From contig DYEU01000030.1 of NCBI GenBank assembly GCA_020725555.1, forward strand, positions 1-51,809: a stretch of 51,809 bases of DNA. The letters are read 5' to 3'. The notes beneath the pieces were generated by a model. The model had not been told where the DNA came from and did no database searches. It was given only the letters and a program-made list of their open reading frames with translations. The translations under genes and the position numbers were made by a program. Numbering within the stretch: position 1 is the first letter of the stretch; each line of letters opens with the position of its first letter. This stretch comes from Desulfatibacillum sp. (lineage in GTDB: Bacteria; Desulfobacterota; Desulfobacteria; Desulfobacterales; SpSt-501). Positions 44,573-51,662 of this stretch are shown piece by piece.

Positions 44573-44998
44573 ATGAACGCCAAGAAGATCATCAAGAGTG
44601 AATCTGGGTTCACCCTGGTCGAAATCATCGCCGTCCTCATCATCCTCGGCATCCTGGCCGCCGTGGCCGTGCCGCGGTACATCGACCTTGAAACCAACGC
44701 CAAAAACAGGGCGATCGACGCCGCCATATCGGAGTTGAACGGCCGCGAAAGCCTTGCGTGGGCGAATGCGAAGATTTCCAATGTGACTTATGCCGATGAT
44801 GATGCGATCGATGCGGCTATTCGCGCCACTCCAGAGATTTATAACCTGAACCCTACCGGGTCCACGGACTATACGTGGGAGACTGGTGGCCCGACGGCCA
44901 CGGGTGGGAGCCTGAGATTCAAGGGCGGCGCTCCGATCAGCCTGACCAGGGATAAAGCAACGCTTTCGCAACCTGGCTCCTGGCGCCGATCCTCATGA
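44573..44998 (+). CDS. Type IV prepilin-like protein
   Basis: 141 residues. A basic 12-residue leader MNAKKIIKSESG is followed by the prepilin cleavage site G/FTLVE with Glu at mature position 5 and a hydrophobic helix (FTLVEIIAVLIILGILAAVA), the universal class of type IV pilins and pseudopilins processed by PilD. The globular part is short (about 100 residues) with NGRESLAWANAKI, and the end reads GGSLRFKGGAPISLTRD and GSWRRSS. There is no disulfide pair. GAGGAGA lies seven bases upstream of ATG 44573. A paired gene at 45050 has the same leader class, NGRE motif and WRR end, so both are probably subunits of one fibre. Confidence 0.85.
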   Translation: MNAKKIIKSESGFTLVEIIAVLIILGILAAVAVPRYIDLETNAKNRAIDAAISELNGRESLAWANAKISNVTYADDDAIDAAIRATPEIYNLNPTGSTDYTWETGGPTATGGSLRFKGGAPISLTRDKATLSQPGSWRRSS

Positions 44999-45049: not shown

Positions 45050-45496
45050 ATGAACCGATCTTCCAATAGGTGTCGTGCAGGGGTTGGGATCACTTCCATG
45101 AACAACTGCAAGGGGTTCACCCTGATCGAGCTGATCGCCACCCTGGTGATCTTCAGCGTGCTGGCGGCGATCCTCATCCCCCGGTACATGGATGCGGAAA
45201 CCGCCTCCAAGTACCGCGCGATCGACATGGGCGTCTCCGAAATGAACGGCCGCGAAACCCTTTCCTGGGCGCTGGTCAAGCTATCCAACGAGGGCTACCG
45301 CGACGACGACCAGGTCTGGGCCCAGCTTCTCGCCGGACCGGGGATCAACCTCGGGCCGGATTATGACTGGGAGCTCGACACCCCGGGGCCGGGCAACAAG
45401 AAGGGAACGCTCCGCTTCAAGCGCGATGTGTTTTCGCCCTTGAACCGCAACCTCTCCACGATCGAGACCCCGGCGCGCTGGCGGCGGAACTTGTAG
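45050..45496 (+). CDS. Type IV prepilin-like protein (paired)
   Basis: 148 residues. The prepilin motif KG/FTLIELIATLVIFSVL is preceded by 22 residues if ATG 45050 is used (AGGGA five bases upstream), or by only 6 (MNNCKG) from ATG 45098, where a weaker GGGA is eight bases upstream. Both leader lengths are known. The globular part holds SEMNGRETLSWALVKLSNEG, YDWELDTPGPGNKKGTLRFK and the closing PARWRRNL. It aligns with the first prepilin in the NGRE(S/T)L(A/S)WA and LRFK...WRR regions and probably arose by duplication. A strong terminator follows 25 bp after its stop. Confidence 0.83.
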   Translation: MNRSSNRCRAGVGITSMNNCKGFTLIELIATLVIFSVLAAILIPRYMDAETASKYRAIDMGVSEMNGRETLSWALVKLSNEGYRDDDQVWAQLLAGPGINLGPDYDWELDTPGPGNKKGTLRFKRDVFSPLNRNLSTIETPARWRRNL

Positions 45497-45627: not shown

Positions 45628-46389
45628 ATGAAAATCGCGGTCAGCGGAAAAGGCGGGGTGGGCAAAACGACGTTCGCCGCCCTCCTTGTCCGCACGCTTG
45701 ACGAGCAAGGGAAAAAGGTGCTCGCGATCGACGCCGACCCGGACGCGAACCTCGCTTCCGGGATCGGCATCCCGGGGGCCGAGGCGATCGTCCCCATCTC
45801 CGAGATGAAGGAGCTGGTGTTCGAGCGCACCGGCGCGCAGCCGGGCTCGATCGGCGGCTACTTCAAGCTCAACCCGCGCGTCGACGATCTCCCGGATGCG
45901 CTCTCGGCGAAGATGGGGAACATCAAGCTCATGCGCCTGGGGGGCGTGAAAAAAGGCGGGGCGGGCTGCATCTGCCCGGAGAGCGCGCTTCTGCGCGCGC
46001 TCGTCATGCACATCGTGCTCCGGCGCGACGAGGTCGTGGTGATGGACATGGAGGCGGGGATCGAGCACCTGGGGCGCGCGACGGCCAAGGCCGTGGACAA
46101 GCTCATCGTCGTCGTCGAGCCGGGCAGGCGGAGCATCGACACCGCGGTTCACATCCGCAGGCTGGCCTCCGAGATCAACCTCCGGCGCATCGCGATCGTC
46201 GGCAACAAGGTCCGCAACGCGGGCGACGAGGGCTTTCTCAAAGAAAACCTCCCCGATTTCGAGTTCCTGGGCTTCATCCCGCACGACGACCGTTTGATCG
46301 AGGCCGACCTCAAGGGCCTCTCCCCGTATGACGCCGGCGGCCCCGCGCGCGACCGCGTCGCCGCCATCGCCACCCTCCTCCTCCAATAG
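45628..46389 (+). CDS. cooC: CooC/AcsF-type nickel-insertion ATPase
   Basis: 253 residues of the MinD/SIMIBI class: deviant Walker A KGGVGKTT (8-15), switch IDADPDANLASGIG near 34 and VVMDMEAGIEHLGR near 142. The CXC motif Cys114-Ile-Cys116 in GGAGCICPESALLRAL is the metal-binding mark of CooC and AcsF, which use ATP to load nickel into CO dehydrogenase or acetyl-CoA synthase. That implies such an enzyme in the genome, though none is in the window. Its stop TAG (46387-46389) lies inside the left arm of the repeat 46386-46483. The region 45554-45627 shows no promoter I trust. Confidence 0.8.
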   Translation: MKIAVSGKGGVGKTTFAALLVRTLDEQGKKVLAIDADPDANLASGIGIPGAEAIVPISEMKELVFERTGAQPGSIGGYFKLNPRVDDLPDALSAKMGNIKLMRLGGVKKGGAGCICPESALLRALVMHIVLRRDEVVVMDMEAGIEHLGRATAKAVDKLIVVVEPGRRSIDTAVHIRRLASEINLRRIAIVGNKVRNAGDEGFLKENLPDFEFLGFIPHDDRLIEADLKGLSPYDAGGPARDRVAAIATLLLQ

Positions 46390-46483
46390 GGGACGTCCAT
46401 TCACATATCACTATCCAAGATGGGACGTCCATTGCTAGATCATCTTGCTTCAATATAATGATATGTGAATGGACGTCCCCTAT
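46386..46483. repeat. REPIN-like element: 25-bp perfect inverted repeat
   Basis: The left arm (46386-46410) and right arm (46459-46483) are exact reverse complements over 25 bp, each holding the palindromic core GGACGTCC. The 48-bp spacer contains a third partial copy (GGGACGTCCATTG at 46422-46434). The element fills the space between the cooC stop and the helicase start exactly. Arms match the repeats flanking the RAYT transposase gene (50345-50369, 51583-51608, 51635-51662), so it is probably mobilised by that enzyme. Confidence 0.85.
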
Positions 46484-48574
46484 ATGGCGATGAGAAGATA
46501 CCCTTCGAGAAGACGTGCGGGGCCGCAGGCGGCGGGGGGGCGGTTTTCGCCTGCCGCCGACCCGGCGCTGAAGCGGGTCTTCGCCGAGATCGGGGTTCCG
46601 GAAGAAACGCCCTTCTCCCCCGACCCCTTCCAACTCGAGGCGCTCGCGGCGGTCGGGAAAGCCGATTGCCTCGTCACCGCACCAACCGGGGCCGGCAAGA
46701 CCTGGATCGCCGAGCAGGCGATCCGCCGCGTTCTCGCCGCTGGCGGGCGCGCCTGGTACGCCTGCCCCCTCAAGGCGCTGAGCAACGCCAAGTTCGCCGA
46801 TTTCGGGCGCCTCTTCGGCCCGGAGCAGGTCGGCATCCTCACCGGCGACCGCAAGGAAAACCCCGATGCCGCGGTGATCGTCGGCACAACCGAGATCCTG
46901 CGCAACCAGCTCTACGACGCCATGCACCGCGGGGAGTCGCTCGGCTTCGATTTCGTCGTCCTTGACGAGGCCCACTTCCTGGGCGACCGCGAGCGGGGGG
47001 TCGTCTGGGAGGAGGTGATGATCTACCTCCCCTCGCGCATCCCCCTGCTTCTCCTCTCGGCCACGATCGGCAACGCCCCCGAGATCGCGGCCTGGCTCTC
47101 CTCGGTCCGCGGCCGCCCCTGCCGCGTCGTCGAGGAGACGCGCAGGCCGGTGCCGCTCTTTCCCCTGTTCCTCAACCCGGCCGGGCTGCTGCTTCCCTTC
47201 TGCCGGCTCTCCCGCCGGGGCACGGCGACAGGCGGGCTGCACGAGAAGGTGCTGCGCTTCGTGCGCTCCAAACGCAGCCCCTGGGCCAACCGGCCGCCCT
47301 CCTTCGGCCGGATCATCGAGGTCCTGCGGCGCTTCGATCTCCTGCCCGCCATCTTCTTTCTCAAGTCCCGCGCCGAATGCGACCAGGCCCTCTCCGCCTG
47401 CCTCGGAAACCAGCCCGAAGACGGCGGCAAGCTCGCCAGAAGAGAGGCGCTCGTGCGGGACTTTTCGGCCTTGAGCGAGCGCGTCGGCCGCCACCGGCAG
47501 CTCTATCATCTCCGCGAGCTCGCGGTCGCCTCCCACCACGCGGGCCAGCTGCCGATTTGGAAACTCCTTGTCGAGCGGCTCATGACCGAGGGGCTTCTCG
47601 ATGCCGTCTTCGCCACCTCGACGGTCGCGGCCGGGGTCAATTTCCCGGCGCGCACGATCGTTCTCCTCTACTCCGACCGCTTCAACGGAAGCGAGTTCCT
47701 GCCGCTCGACCCGACCGAGTTTCACCAGATGACCGGCCGCGCCGGCCGCCGGGGCATGGACCGCATCGGCTTCGTCCTCACGGTCCCCAACCGCTTCATG
47801 GACCTCCTGCACGTGGCGGCGCTGCTCAACGCCGAGCCCTCCGACGTGGAAAGCCGGATCCACATCAATTTCTCGATGGTCCTGAACCTCCTGCTGTCGC
47901 ACACCCCGCCCCAGGTCGAGGACTTGCTCAAGCGCTCCTTCGCCGCCTTCCGCAGGGCGAAGGCCGTCCGCCGCGGGGGCGCCGGGCGTCTTGAGGCCGC
48001 AGAGCGCCTGTGGCGCGAGTTCGAGCACCACCTCGCCTTCCTGCGCGACCACGGCTACGTGAATCCCGAAAACGCCCTCACCGAGGACGGCCTCTGGGCC
48101 TCGCGGCTGCGCGTGGACCGGCCGCTCCTCATCGCCGAGGGCTTCCGCCGGGCGGCCTTCCCGCAAAAGGACCCCGCGCTGCTCGCCGGGCTGATCGCCC
48201 CCTTCGTCTTCGAAAAGGAGATCGAGGAGCGGCTCTCGGAGCGGCAGATCCCGCGGCCGCTCGCCTCCGCCTACCGGAAGCTTGCGCTCGCGCTGTCGCC
48301 CTTCATGGGGGAGATGCTGGATGCGGGCTTCGAGGCCCGGCCGCTTTCGATCCGGCCGGCCGCGGCGCTCTACGCCTGGGCGAGGGGGGAGAGCTGGGAG
48401 CGAACGCTTCACATCAGCGAGCTTGAGGAGGGGGATCTCGCCGTCCTGATTTTGCGCACGGCGGACAACCTGCGGCACGTCGCCTCCCTGGCCGAGGTCT
48501 TCCCCGAGGCGGCAGCCGCGGCGGCCGAGGCCGTCGCCGCGATCCTGAGAGACCCGGTCGTGGACGCGCTATAG
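46484..48574 (+). CDS. Ski2-like DEAD/DEAH-box helicase
   Basis: About 696 residues. Motif I APTGAGKTWIAEQ, motif II VLDEAHF, motif III LLSATIG, motif IV FFLKSRAECDQAL, motif V FATSTVAAGVNFPARTI and motif VI QMTGRAGRRGMDRIG are all present, and a DSHCT-like helical C-terminus follows. The SF2 Ski2/Mtr4-like proteins unwind RNA or DNA 3' to 5'. Bacterial members are usually of unknown role. ATG 46484 was taken because the upstream ATG 46469 comes from the repeat arm (MDVPY); ATG 46490 is a further option. No Shine-Dalgarno sequence is visible. The TAG stop shares the palindrome CTATAG with the stop of the convergent kinase gene. Confidence 0.85.
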   Translation: MAMRRYPSRRRAGPQAAGGRFSPAADPALKRVFAEIGVPEETPFSPDPFQLEALAAVGKADCLVTAPTGAGKTWIAEQAIRRVLAAGGRAWYACPLKALSNAKFADFGRLFGPEQVGILTGDRKENPDAAVIVGTTEILRNQLYDAMHRGESLGFDFVVLDEAHFLGDRERGVVWEEVMIYLPSRIPLLLLSATIGNAPEIAAWLSSVRGRPCRVVEETRRPVPLFPLFLNPAGLLLPFCRLSRRGTATGGLHEKVLRFVRSKRSPWANRPPSFGRIIEVLRRFDLLPAIFFLKSRAECDQALSACLGNQPEDGGKLARREALVRDFSALSERVGRHRQLYHLRELAVASHHAGQLPIWKLLVERLMTEGLLDAVFATSTVAAGVNFPARTIVLLYSDRFNGSEFLPLDPTEFHQMTGRAGRRGMDRIGFVLTVPNRFMDLLHVAALLNAEPSDVESRIHINFSMVLNLLLSHTPPQVEDLLKRSFAAFRRAKAVRRGGAGRLEAAERLWREFEHHLAFLRDHGYVNPENALTEDGLWASRLRVDRPLLIAEGFRRAAFPQKDPALLAGLIAPFVFEKEIEERLSERQIPRPLASAYRKLALALSPFMGEMLDAGFEARPLSIRPAAALYAWARGESWERTLHISELEEGDLAVLILRTADNLRHVASLAEVFPEAAAAAAEAVAAILRDPVVDAL

Positions 48575-50344
48575 CCCCCTGCCGCAGGCGCCCGGCGCAG
48601 AAACGATCTCGCTGAGCTTCTGCGAGAGTTGCTCGAGATTGAAAGGTTTCTGGATGAACCCCCGACAGCCGCGGGCGAGAATCTCGCCGGCCTGGCCGTT
48701 CAGGCTGAAACCGCTGGCGAGCAGCACCTTCACCCCCGGGTCGATCGCCCGCAGCCGCTCAAAAACCTCCCCGCCGCTCATGCCGGGCATGACCATGTCC
48801 AGCACGACCGCGGCGATTTCCTTCGAGCGGCCGGCGAAGGCCGCGATCGCCTCGGCCCCGCTGCGGGCGGCGATCACCGTGTAGCCGAGCTCGCGCAACA
48901 TCTCGCCTGCGATCTGGAGGATCGACTCCTCGTCGTCGACCAGGAGCACCGTTCCGGACCCGCGCCGGATGTCGGGCCCCCGGGGCGGTTTTCCCCGCTC
49001 GGCCGCCTGCGAGGAGGCCGGCAGGTAGAAGTTGAAGGTCGTCCCCCGGCCGACCTCGCTGTAAACGTTGATGTGGCCGCCGTGCCCCTTGATGATCCCG
49101 TAGGCCGAGGCGAGGCCCAAGCCGGTCCCGCGGCCCATTTCCTTCGTCGTAAAAAAAGGCTCGAAGATGCGCCCCAAGTTCTTCTTCTCGATCCCGACCC
49201 CGGTGTCCGTGACCGAGACCTTGACGTAGCGGCCGGGCTTGACCTGGTAGGGCTTGGAGTAGGTTTCATCCAGGGTCATGGGCTCGGTCGCCAGCGTGAG
49301 GTCCCCCCCCTCCGGCATGGCCTGGACGGCGTTCACGCAGAGGTTCATCAGGACCTGCTCGATCTGTCCCCGGTCCGCCTCGACCGCCGGCAGATCGGGG
49401 CTTAGCCGAACGTGGACGCGGATGTCCTTGCGGGTCCGCGCGAAGAGCCCGGCCGTCTTTTCGATCACCGCGTTCAAATCCGTTGCGCGCACGTCGACGC
49501 GGCCGCGGCGGGCAAACCCCAAAAGCTGGCGCGAGAGCTCGGTCCCGCTCTCCACGTAGGCCTCGATGTTCTTCACCTTCTCGAGGCCGGGGTGGCCCTC
49601 GGGAAGCCGCATTTCGAGGAGCGAGGCGTTTCCCTGGATGCCCATGAGGATGTTGTTGAAGTCGTGGGCGATCCCGCCGGCGAGCGTCCCGATCGCCTCC
49701 ATCTTCTGCGCGGCCTGAAGCTGGACCTCGAGTTTCTTTCGCTCCTCCTCGGCGAAAAGCCGCTCGGTCACATCGCGTACGACCCCGCGGAAGCCCGTGG
49801 CTTGTCCCTCCTCGCCCGCGATCAGCGACAAGGACAGCTCGAGCCGCCGCTCGCTTCCTTCCGTTCGATGGACGACGCAGTCGGCAAGGCTCTGCGGCTC
49901 CCCCGAAGCCCGCAACCGGCCGAAGGCTTCCCGCAGGCGCTCCCCCGACTCGGGCGCCATGAGCTCGGCCGCGTGTCGCTCCAAAAGCTCCGGGGTTCCG
50001 CGCCCCAGCATGCGGGCGAGCGGGCCGCTCACGAAGGTGAGCCGTCCCCCGAGATCGGTTTCGAAATAGCCTTCCTCGATGCTTTCCAAAATCGAGCGGT
50101 ATCGCGCGGCGCTTTTTTTCAGCGCCTCGTCGGATTGCTGCTCGCGCCGCAGGGTGTAGTGGATGTGCGAGCCGAAGATGGCAAAGAGGCACAGGACGAG
50201 CAGCCGGGTCAGCGTGTTGAAGCGGTCGGGGCCGAGGAGGTGCTGGATGAAGTTCGCCTCCGGGGCGAGAAAGAAGAACATGAAGGATTCGCAGACCCAA
50301 TAGATGAAAGAGATCGCAACCGTGCTGATCAGGATGGAGCGCAT
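48569..50344 (-). CDS. Membrane hybrid histidine kinase (TM-PAS-HisKA-HATPase-REC)
   Basis: 591 residues. The first 70 residues have two membrane segments (MRSILISTVAISFIYWVCES, then RLLVLCLFAIFGSHIHYTLR) and match the N-terminus of the kinase at 29326-31956. Next come PAS (YRSILESIEEGYFETDLGG), HisKA with His in GTLAGGIAHDFNNILMGI, HATPase (NQLV-type N-box LMNLCVNAVQAMPEGG, TDTGVGIEKKNLG, GRGTGLGLASAYGIIKGHGG), and a receiver (VLLVDDEESILQ, VVLDMVMPGMSGG, IQKPFNLEQL). ATG 50344 is preferred; ATG 50359 is supplied by the repeat arm (MDVPY) just upstream. The signal and target are unknown. It is convergent with the helicase. Confidence 0.85.
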   Translation of the reverse strand: MRSILISTVAISFIYWVCESFMFFFLAPEANFIQHLLGPDRFNTLTRLLVLCLFAIFGSHIHYTLRREQQSDEALKKSAARYRSILESIEEGYFETDLGGRLTFVSGPLARMLGRGTPELLERHAAELMAPESGERLREAFGRLRASGEPQSLADCVVHRTEGSERRLELSLSLIAGEEGQATGFRGVVRDVTERLFAEEERKKLEVQLQAAQKMEAIGTLAGGIAHDFNNILMGIQGNASLLEMRLPEGHPGLEKVKNIEAYVESGTELSRQLLGFARRGRVDVRATDLNAVIEKTAGLFARTRKDIRVHVRLSPDLPAVEADRGQIEQVLMNLCVNAVQAMPEGGDLTLATEPMTLDETYSKPYQVKPGRYVKVSVTDTGVGIEKKNLGRIFEPFFTTKEMGRGTGLGLASAYGIIKGHGGHINVYSEVGRGTTFNFYLPASSQAAERGKPPRGPDIRRGSGTVLLVDDEESILQIAGEMLRELGYTVIAARSGAEAIAAFAGRSKEIAAVVLDMVMPGMSGGEVFERLRAIDPGVKVLLASGFSLNGQAGEILARGCRGFIQKPFNLEQLSQKLSEIVSAPGACGRGL

Positions 50345-50369
50345 ATAGGGGACGTCCATTCAGATATCA
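50345..50369 (-). repeat. REP-like repeat arm, left flank of RAYT
   Basis: This 25-bp sequence differs from the left arm of 46386-46483 at one base (CAG for CAC). It lies between the RAYT stop (50372) and the kinase start (50344) and forms an inverted pair with the arms at 51583-51662, bounding the transposase gene. Confidence 0.8.
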
Positions 50370-50371
50370 CT

Positions 50372-51379
50372 TTACGGCGGCAGAATCGCGAGCCCCTTTT
50401 CCTTCACGATCTTTTCCCCGCGGGCGATGGACTGGGAGACGGTCGGCTGGGCGAGATCGAGCCTGCGGCCGAGATCGACGGTGCTCATCCCCAGCTCGCG
50501 GTTCGCCCAAAAGCAAAGGACGCTGCGGGCGAGCACGGTGCGCGGGTAGCGCCCCTTCCGCAGGACCTCCTCCACGGGCATGGAAAAGAGCTCGGCCACG
50601 CGCCCGGCGAGCCGCTCGAAGGTGAAGCCCAGGGCCTCGAGCCGGCTTCGCCGCCCGATCCGCTCCTCGGCCGATTTGAGGACCTGCTCCACGAACTCCG
50701 CGTCTCCCAGAATCCGCTCGTCGCCGCAAAGTTTCTGCCCGGCGCCGCGCAGCGTTTTGACGGCCTGCCAGCCCCCCAGGCTGCGCACCAGGCCGCCCCC
50801 CACGAGCTCGGGCCGCTTGCCCTGATCGACCCCCTTGGCCACGAAGTCCCGGTAGCGCTCGCGCGCCTTGGCGGGGCTCACCCCGAAGCGCTCGAGAATT
50901 TCCTTCACCGCCTGCCAGTCGTTTCGGTGGGTCCCCACAATGACCCCGTGGCCGCAGAAGGGATAGGTCTCAAGCTCCTTCAGGTTGGCGACAACGCCGG
51001 CGCGCAGGGGGTTGAGATGGATATAGCGCACCAGCTCCAGGAAATAGGGCTCCTCCTGGCAGAGGATCGAACGGTAGCGGTTCTGAAAGAGATGCCCGCT
51101 GCGGTCGTTTCTCAGGTTGAAGCGCACGGCGTATCCCGTGAGCAGGCGCCGCATGAAGTCGGCAAGCGGTCGATCGCCCGTGCGCAAAAGAAGATGGAAA
51201 TGGTTGGGAAGAAGCGCCCACGCATAGCAGCGAAGGCCCATCTCGATCAAAAGCGTCCCAAGCCTTTCGAGGAAATCCTCCCGATCCTGGTCATCGCGGA
51301 AGATCTTGCGGCGCTCCAGCCCACGCACGATCACGTGGTGAAGCACCCCGGGGGCGTCCAGCCTGGCCCTGCGCGGCAT
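50372..51379 (-). CDS. REP-associated tyrosine transposase (RAYT, Y1_Tnp) with DnaA-like C-terminus
   Basis: 335 residues. The N-terminal Y1 transposase domain (about 1-150) has the HUH motif His60-Phe-His62 in LLPNHFHLLLR and the catalytic Tyr119 in YIHLNPLRAG. GHLFQNRYRSIL is the conserved RAYT box. The second half has a DnaA domain IV-like helix-turn-helix (LGRRLDLAQPTVSQSIARGE near 300-325), which could read repeat DNA. RAYTs are domesticated IS200/IS605 relatives that cut and copy short palindromic REP sequences. Inverted copies of one such repeat flank the gene, and a full inverted pair is present at 46386-46483. Confidence 0.88.
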   Translation of the reverse strand: MPRRARLDAPGVLHHVIVRGLERRKIFRDDQDREDFLERLGTLLIEMGLRCYAWALLPNHFHLLLRTGDRPLADFMRRLLTGYAVRFNLRNDRSGHLFQNRYRSILCQEEPYFLELVRYIHLNPLRAGVVANLKELETYPFCGHGVIVGTHRNDWQAVKEILERFGVSPAKARERYRDFVAKGVDQGKRPELVGGGLVRSLGGWQAVKTLRGAGQKLCGDERILGDAEFVEQVLKSAEERIGRRSRLEALGFTFERLAGRVAELFSMPVEEVLRKGRYPRTVLARSVLCFWANRELGMSTVDLGRRLDLAQPTVSQSIARGEKIVKEKGLAILPP

Positions 51380-51582
51380 AGGCGATCCTCTCTCTGCAGG
51401 CTGCGGGCAAACAACGTTTTTTCGGGGGTGATCTAATGTTTCCAGCGAGCGACGAAGCGTCTTCTATCGTCTTTGCCTCGCCTGCGCTTTGACGTGATTT
51501 CGCTTTCCCGATGGCCGCGGGCTCCTTGGCGATCGGCCATGGCCCTGCCTGGCCGCAGCCGCCTGGGTTCTCTGTCAAAGCA

Positions 51583-51608
51583 AGTGATAAAACAATGAAC
51601 GTCCCTAT
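51583..51608 (+). repeat. Diverged REP-like repeat arm, right flank of RAYT
   Basis: AAGTGATAAAACAATGAACG continues to TCCCTAT and corresponds to the right arm of 46459-46483 with several changes, including loss of one C (GTCCCTA instead of GTCCCCTA). It is inverted relative to 50345-50369. Confidence 0.6.
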
Positions 51609-51634
51609 TTTAGCGGAGATGGGGAACGGCGGTC

Positions 51635-51662
51635 AAGTGATAAATGAATGGACGTCCCTAGG
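51635..51662 (+). repeat. REP-like repeat arm, outer right flank of RAYT
   Basis: AAGTGATAAATGAATGGACG then TCCCTAGG is closer to the right arm of 46459-46483 than the copy at 51583. A further fragment, CTACGTCCCTAG, follows at 51664-51673. With 50345-50369 these bound the transposase unit. Confidence 0.7.

Follow-up and report, generated by a model that had tools for sequence, protein, structure and literature searches.

Covariation with inverted-repeat arms points to the DnaA-like C-terminal domain as the candidate repeat reader of a RAYT-like Y1 transposase

Does a Y1 transposase with a DnaA-like tail use this tail to read its own repeats? This question is raised by a gene in contig DYEU01000030.1 of Desulfatibacillum sp. 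(assembly GCA_020725555.1), a stretch of 51,809 nucleotides that is called the window here and belongs to a genome of 3.59 Mb in 35 contigs (G000). The gene (50372..51379, minus strand) encodes a Y1 (HUH) transposase of 335 aa and is flanked by inverted copies of a short repeat, termed arm, that recurs throughout the genome. Y1 transposases are known for reading single-stranded hairpins; here a whole clade seems to use a duplex-binding domain of the initiator type. Whether the DnaA_C tail reads repeats has been left open in print: Quentin et al. 2018 report no REP-like sequences near genes of TnpA_Y1 subclass 2.1 and consider that the tail is perhaps uninvolved in target recognition, or has a new target (PMC6006769). 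Arm anatomy, coevolution, copy numbers, synteny and breaks at repeats were all read from sequence, and we consider it very probable that the locus represents a TIRYT or subclass 2.1 Y1 transposase with dispersed arms, whose C-terminal DnaA-like domain reads half-sites within them.

The transposase combines two recognizable parts. Its Y1 catalytic core (residues 14-121; 51017..51340, minus strand) was detected by Pfam as Y1_Tnp (1.2e-8), while the match of the tail to Bac_DnaA_C was weak (4.1e-4) and below the curated cut-off. The NCBIfam model REP_Tyr_transpos scored 66.8 bits, under its cut-off of 80, and the full-length protein had no phmmer match in PDB at E 0.001. An AlphaFold2 model built from six sequences had a mean pLDDT (predicted local distance difference test) of 62.6, with values of about 77-93 over residues 251-330. 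When this model was compared by VIA-align, the N-terminus matched TnpA_REP (4er8; Z 14.8, 3.0 Å, 152 aligned), and residues 252-335 matched DnaA domain IV with a DnaA box (1j1v; Z 10.7, 2.4 Å, 84 aligned), followed by M. tuberculosis DnaA (3pvp; Z 10.2). The DnaA domain IV-like domain (residues 255-325; 50405..50617, minus strand) overlaps a predicted recognition helix (residues 311-328, with Q311, P312, T313 and Q316; 50396..50449, minus strand), which is a helix in the structure model and contains covarying residues.

To define the arms, elements of relatives were compared in two sets. Set 1 was hand-picked among the matches listed, together with named loci, and contained 88 parsed records, 60 of which had anchored arm pairs; the window arms were added by hand and elements of at least 90% identity were removed, leaving 53. 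Set 2 was taken from the same order, in genomes outside the first 146, and contained 82 loci with 81 parsed genes, of which 57 were anchored; 53 were retained, with less than 90% identity among themselves and to members of set 1. The constant tip of the tested arms is built in, because arms were anchored by GGGAC[AG]. An anchor-free analysis of set 2 detected an inverted repeat scoring at least 12 at 68 of the 81 genes and no strong inverted repeat at the remaining 13; 65 of these 68 repeats hold GGGAC in the arm or in the 6 nt before it, 64 of them as GGGACG. Arms are 90% identical within an element vs 60% between elements, and in 43 of 53 elements no arm was a better match than the element's own 3' arm.

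Comparison of arm positions p and p+8 revealed an internal repetition. Within arms these positions agreed at 0.551 vs 0.390 between arms in set 1 (n = 53; z 10.2), and at 0.575 vs 0.395 in set 2 (n = 53; z 11.1). The next best offset reached only z 3.5, and the 3' arms at offset 8 gave z 15.6. Identical 4-mers at positions 10-13 and 18-21 were present in 36 of 106 arms, where 7.2 were expected. Since the agreement is confined to offset 8, each arm contains two direct half-sites. An arm is thus laid out as a shared tip GGGACG (in this genome mostly with TAG in front of it), some adjacent bases, and an inner half carrying the half-sites at 10-13 and 18-21.

Next, the inner half of the arms was related to the parts of the protein by partial Mantel tests, in each of which the rest of the protein was removed. 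The DnaA-like domain (residues 255-325) correlated with the arms in set 1 (r 0.375) and set 2 (r 0.288; both p 0.001), whereas the Y1 core did not (0.067, p 0.13, and 0.036, p 0.30). When arm swaps were restricted to N-terminal clusters at a cut of 0.40 or 0.35, p was still 0.001. Residues 255-330, a region comprising 23% of columns, accounted for 19 of the top 30 residue-base pairs in set 1 and for 15 of 30 in set 2. Ten pairs from set 1 were fixed in writing before any element of set 2 had been retrieved or tested; five of them exceeded the 99th percentile in set 2, i.e. Q311-10, Q311-18, P279-18, Q316-20 and T313-20, with z 8.4 and 7.1 for Q311 at positions 10 and 18, respectively. The suggestion of the original prediction that the DnaA-like C-terminus could be the repeat-reading module is supported by this coevolution in both sets.

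The covarying residues map to positions at which DnaA contacts bases. The profile of the C-terminal domain matches T. maritima DnaA (2z4r, E 4.2e-6), and through this alignment, with E. coli numbering assigned by hand, we take Q311, P312, Q316 and R277 to be the equivalents of E. coli DnaA H434, T435, H439 and R399. Specific contacts of DnaA are made by R399, P423, D433, H434, T435 and H439 (PMC7561715), with R399 contacting the minor groove (PMC9638019). The equivalents of these six residues covary with the arm above other columns (p 5e-5), at ranks 8, 32, 31, 1, 18 and 2 of 334; Q311, Q316 and R277 occupy ranks 1, 2 and 8. At residue 311, Q occurs with A at position 10 in 27/31 (set 1) and 32/35 (set 2) elements and with A at position 18 in 29/31 and 33/35, while T at position 10 accompanies the remaining residues in 14/22 and 16/18. 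R316 is accompanied by G at position 12 in 7/10 and 11/12 cases, and Q316 mostly by T. A rule assigning A to Q and otherwise T, which was phrased after the residue-base tables of both sets had been seen, was correct in set 2 for 48/53 elements at position 10 and for 50/53 at position 18, with baselines of 32 and 34. In short, residue 311 tracks the first base of each half-site (A for Q, mostly T for the others) and residue 316 tracks the third base (G for R, mostly T for Q), while residue 277 takes the position of the minor-groove arginine of DnaA. In addition, a signal at arm positions 7-9, which adjoin the tip, comes from residues 213-219 (50723-50743, minus strand; G219-7 with z 6.0, A213-7, K216-7 and C218-9). 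This segment is a possible second reading element, perhaps for the stretch that separates the tip from the half-sites.

These data suggest a mechanism in which the DnaA domain IV-like domain would bind the half-sites as double-stranded DNA through its helix-turn-helix (HTH), while nicking of one strand, presumably at the shared tip or close to it, would fall to the Y1 core. The residue-base swaps predicted by the code are checkable by simple binding assays, and the roughly one hundred DnaA-fold domains with different targets provide a natural set for studying how specificity is determined in this fold.

The arms also form a dispersed family. The 12-nt core GGGACGTYCATT occurs 55 times in G000 (31 on the plus and 24 on the minus strand) vs 0 matches for the reversed pattern, which bears out the original prediction of a repeat family that belongs to a RAYT-type Y1 enzyme. 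The consensus of these copies is TAG-GGGACGTCCATTnnnATATYRnTW, of which positions 1-12 were set by the search pattern and later ones were free to vary; positions 13-24 are partly conserved (A18 in 54/55, T19 in 53/55; 13-15 free), and at least two copies (C25:46422 and C28:42632) are degenerate beyond position 12. No GT[AG]G tag is present in this consensus, and five single arms folded at 0 (three), -0.1 and -0.2 kcal/mol, i.e. without a hairpin of their own, so a hairpin reading of single arms was rejected; a long stem arises when two arms pair. The palindrome GGACGTCC noted in the core earlier is indeed present in this genome. However, it is not kept by relatives, which have GGGACGCCC, GGGACGGGC, GGGACGTTC or GGGACGCTC and conserve GGGACG, and it was therefore discarded as a recognition feature.

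All neighbours of opposite orientation within 400 bp have their tips outward (11 pairs in G000, 8 in G003, a genome of the same genus), and direct neighbours within this distance number 4 and 3, respectively. According to a simple open reading frame (ORF) caller, 9 of the 55 copies lie within called genes and the others in spaces or at gene ends. The TAG lead is present in 30/55 copies of G000 and 25/43 of G003, and, by the same caller, is the exact stop codon of the upstream gene in 9/55 and 11/43. Targeting of stop codons is not claimed; the coincidence arises because copies lie at gene ends and TAG is part of the conserved lead. A second tip up to 25 nt upstream, resembling a duplicated flank plus tip, was found in 10/55 copies of G000 and 0/43 of G003. 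By eye, these tandem duplications of flank and GGGGAC(G) outside the tip have units of about 10-19 nt in phase with TAG-GGGAC, as at C6:152062 (L039), C23:8204 (L052), C30:49772 (L055) and C28:42427 (L054) in G000. The 13-nt duplication at C6:152062 is absent from G003 and was therefore gained or lost in place. The duplications may be footprints of nicking and re-joining.

In the window, the transposase gene has one arm at its 3' side with the tip outward (50349..50375, plus strand) and two at its 5' side, an inner copy of the GGGACGTTC variant (51579..51605, minus strand) and an outer copy (51632..51658, minus strand) with a second tip directly outside. These 5' arms are 226 and 279 bp from the gene start, while the 5' arm of relatives is mostly located at 51-65 bp; the blastn alignment to G003 stops at 51387, the interval concerned being 51387-51579. 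At 4 kb from the transposase, a perfect 25-bp inverted pair (46386-46410 / 46459-46483) with a 48-bp spacer was confirmed, and all arms reported earlier are where they had been placed. Its left arm (46390..46416, plus strand) follows a TAG that is the stop codon of a ParA-like gene (45628-46389), and its right arm lies at 46453..46479 (minus strand). The pair 46386-46483 folds as a single long stem (-30 kcal/mol, z -9.4). A third copy with a degenerate inner half, overlooked before, is located within the spacer (46422..46448, plus strand) and is also present in G003, though in opposite orientation.

Arm-like sites co-occur with this enzyme clade. In G003, whose enzyme is 86% identical to the window transposase, GGGACGTYCATT has 43 matches (reversed control 1), while five other genomes of the genus, with enzymes of at most 61% identity among the matches listed, short fragments aside, have 0, 0, 1, 0 and 0. 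For wider relatives the general arm pattern AGGGGACGNNCATN{3,7}TAT was searched in 146 genomes, in which a close enzyme was defined by E <= 1e-60, a limit set after the data had been seen, and classes were tallied by hand. The co-occurrence anticipated for a repeat family of this kind was found, as at least two distinct sites were present in 17/62 genomes with a close enzyme among the matches listed vs 0/84 others (Fisher p 1e-7), and at least one site in 25/62 vs 8/84 (p 2e-5). Several relatives (G009, G056, G063, G071 and G088) have an arm flavour of their own. Of the loci with names found for the transposase gene, 13/14 come from Desulfobacterales and other deltaproteobacterial metagenome-assembled genomes. 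In one relative, G054 (two contigs), 11 copies of a 1.1-kb element including the query share at least 97.9% identity over at least 1,051 bp (six stretches), and their ends have the same arm architecture; the enzyme clade thus includes truly multi-copy elements, and in at least this relative the system would act as an insertion sequence of about 1.1 kb with terminal inverted repeats. Insertion boundaries were taken from these near-identical copies only, and runs of G leave the exact end ambiguous. At L104 and L105 (G054:C1 3848000-3888000), many near-identical copies are clustered in the same orientation, some by doubled tips, a pattern suggestive of an active element that hops locally.

In G000 and G003, two species of the genus, a single gene of this enzyme type is kept at the same syntenic place, under purifying selection (dN/dS 0.10 over 333 codons). 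G000 has 40 repeat groups, 15 of which could be anchored on both sides in the compared stretches of G003, 13 with the exact arm there; conversely, 16 of 32 groups of G003 were anchored and 15 had the exact arm in G000. The compared stretches were chosen for containing repeats, which biases these fractions toward sharing. At C28:28153 and C6:152062 the arm was kept while the spacer between two arms diverged past alignment, which suggests constraint or homogenisation, with the same sampling bias. A search of both genomes for a single arm that is cleanly missing from one of them gave no readable insertion boundary. At C2:22446 of G003 the G000 counterpart lacks the arm, yet the lengths are 155 vs 158 bp, so the boundary is unreadable there.

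Over 16 syntenic stretch pairs, breaks of size or content, defined as gaps between aligned blocks and assigned to spaces approximately, affected 9/22 repeat-bearing intergenic spaces vs 2/47 others (Fisher p 3e-4). This excess is an association only, because the choice of stretches was centred on repeats and G000 and G003 are both draft assemblies. One of the nine breaks at repeats (C23:6407) is a poorly aligned segment of equal length, and a 10-kb difference at C1:26.3-36.6 kb was unanchored and excluded from the count. At C30 a break begins exactly at the tip of a pair, and this tip is doubled. At two places, one repeat in G000 faces two direct repeats in G003, with a distance of 2.75 kb at one place and 14.5 kb at the other; the two copies at 14.5 kb are similar past the arm, over about 70 bp in total. 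The short arm copies, single or as pairs with tips outward and mostly at gene borders, would mark sites at which genes were gained or lost. Of nine genes that lie between repeats or next to them, six had Pfam matches (methyltransferase, SprT-like/DUF2786, EamA, DUF4382, esterase and Dus) and three had none; a composite-transposon reading of the inter-arm segments was not supported, as no transposase match was found in these nine genes. Between conserved repeat pairs, L052 (G000:C23 8263-9967) and L116 (G003:C19) carry about 1.7 and 1.9 kb of unalignable DNA, and the G000 gene within the L052 segment has no Pfam match.

Several points weigh against half-site reading by the C-terminal domain. 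VIA-align cautions that helical folds with Z below about 13 can reflect a common arrangement, and half-sites 8 bp apart sit on different faces of B-DNA. An anchored arm pair was lacking in 28/88 records of set 1, which include the same gene taken twice and two that are the window itself with its arms further out, and in 24/81 genes of set 2. The middle segment (residues 151-254) correlates with the arms in set 2 (r 0.131, p 0.006; 0.0 in set 1), and V18, E238 and the segment 213-219, all outside the C-terminal domain, are among the top pairs. Of the ten pre-written pairs, R277-16, R277-15 and P312-19 reached only the 93rd-97th percentile in set 2, and A319-20 and P312-18 failed there. Q311 elements without A at position 10 amount to 4/31 and 3/35, and R316-G at position 12 rests on four informative independent pairs, three of them in the predicted direction. 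Finally, the same genome encodes two further full-length homologues (51% and 43% identity) that might act on the arms as well, though one has its own arm type. The paralogue at C6:173253 has the residues P and K and an arm (G/A)GGACGATGGTGA, with 10 sites of GGACGATGGTGA in the genome, 5 of them beside its gene on C6. Its arm resembles those of the relatives L144, L152 and L168; it agrees with the residue code but is not an independent test, because these relatives are already in the test set.

Parallel divergence of arms and C-terminal domains by shared ancestry, with no direct contact, would produce correlations as well, and the elements are related; indeed, restricting permutations to tight N-terminal clusters (62 clusters of 106 elements) drops the test to p 0.049, which also counts against direct reading. 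However, the Y1 core has the same ancestry and is uncorrelated, and the covariation is concentrated at the base-contact positions of DnaA. Moreover, a tree of residues 1-254 shows at least 13 changes of residue 311 from Q to another residue or back. In 13 independent Q/non-Q pairs, position 10 differs in 10 and so does position 18, 10/10 as predicted at both, and 3 are unchanged. We therefore regard ancestry as a highly improbable account. Little more can be said for a classical REPIN/RAYT system, in which the arms would be REPs that the Y1 core reads in the form of single-stranded hairpins, leaving the DnaA-like tail a regulatory role only. It would fit the nearest fold (4er8), the vertically kept gene under purifying selection, the dispersed copies with 11/11 opposite neighbours tips outward and the long stem formed by one such pair. 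Yet the arms lack both tag and hairpin, and their divergence follows the C-terminal domain, not the Y1 core, which makes this explanation unlikely too. Half-site reading by the DnaA-like domain is thus strongly preferred over both.

It is a separate matter whether the transposase, which may spread the arms, also causes the breaks. These could instead stem from RecA-type recombination between repeats or from repeats residing in already unstable spaces, with the transposase uninvolved. The two cases of one repeat facing two direct repeats speak for this, the extended similarity in the 14.5-kb case fitting homologous recombination, while the C30 break at a doubled tip points toward the enzyme but is compatible with recombination still. 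We hold the chances of enzyme-independent breaks to be evenly balanced. If the breaks were enzyme-dependent, the arms would be a route for gene-block turnover. A more far-reaching model, which we put forward as rather doubtful, is an HUH family with a rebuilt replication-initiator layout, combining duplex half-site reading beside a common nick tip, a two-residue code that is often re-tuned, arms private to each enzyme, and arms serving as enzyme-dependent joints for gain and loss of gene blocks.

In view of these properties, the locus is better named a TIRYT or TnpA_Y1 subclass 2.1 (2.1.2) system, as assigned from motifs, tail and inverted repeats. It is of a known kind, since TIRYTs and subclass 2.1 with a DnaA_C tail have been published. 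Table 1 of PMC6006769 gives NH[YFV]H and Y[IV]HLNP as motifs of subclass 2.1, which in the window transposase read NHFH (59-62) and YIHLNP (119-124); a C-terminal Bac_DnaA_C or HTH extension is likewise present by the weak Pfam, fold and profile matches. The enzyme thus resembles subclass 2.1 in NH[YF]H, Y[IV]HLNP and Bac_DnaA_C-like tail, and differs from its account in PMC6006769 in that here the tail tracks the arm sequence. The same authors state that subclass 2.1 probably equals the TIRYTs, most of which they place there. TIRYTs and TIRtrons, for which families of terminal inverted repeats (TIRs) were described by Di Nocera et al. 2013 (PMC3733652), share with our locus a RAYT-like Y1 gene between TIRs, here 50349-50375 vs 51579-51605 and 51632-51658. 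According to the same source, part of the TIRs share a motif starting with GGGG, and some are dispersed families with dimers and clusters. From the motif GGGGWSAS, GGGGACGT deviates at the last two positions; the motif is not required, because it is ascribed to 'some' TIRs in PMC3733652 and to the 'majority' in PMC6006769. Unlike the TIRYT description in the available text of PMC3733652, the arms here have internal direct half-sites, and a repeat reader is proposed. Half-sites or a residue code for this tail were not found in the accessible portions of open-access literature searched by family, domain and protein names. The GGGACG tip with 8-bp direct half-sites and the putative residue-base code are new here, as far as this literature goes; the tail itself was already known.

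Other systems match less well. Like TnpA_REP/RAYT of E. coli (4er8), the enzyme has a Y1 fold and its gene has its own dispersed repeats (PMC8266576); however, REPs are GTAG-tagged hairpins read single-stranded (PMC8266576), and these arms have neither tag nor own hairpin. The strict 'signature of a REPIN/RAYT system' in the original prediction therefore did not hold, as GT[AG]G is missing at any hairpin foot, single arms form no hairpin and the palindrome is incidental. Inverted pairs with a spacer, as in REPINs, do occur: among neighbours within 400 bp in the 55 copies, 11 pairs have their tips outward, no inverted pair is of the opposite kind, and 4 neighbours are direct. Low copy number, vertical inheritance and purifying selection, as in RAYTs, characterize the enzyme in G000/G003, whereas the G054 relative is multi-copy instead. 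IS200/IS605 elements differ by subterminal hairpins that a short Y1 protein recognises, compared with the unfolded single arms and the 335-aa protein with its extra domain here. Compared with DnaA domain IV, the C-terminal fold is alike and covarying residues are at base-contact positions, but the candidate target consists of two 8-bp-spaced half-sites of variable sequence instead of the 9-mer DnaA box. Rolling-circle replication initiators combine an HUH nuclease with iteron-like direct repeats and a nick site. The window enzyme shares the nuclease and the direct repeats next to a conserved nick-like sequence with them and lacks a helicase; homology is not claimed.

Arms also touch neighbouring genes of the window. 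The longest ORFs of a DEAD/DSHCT helicase (46469) and of a sensor kinase (50359) begin at an ATG inside an arm (ATGGACGTCCCC, Met-Asp-Val-Pro); both probably exceed the true genes, because further ATGs come directly after. By eye, small ORFs at 44573-44998 and 45050-45496 carry type IV pilin-like N-terminal methylation signals (GFTLVEI and GFTLIEL, respectively).

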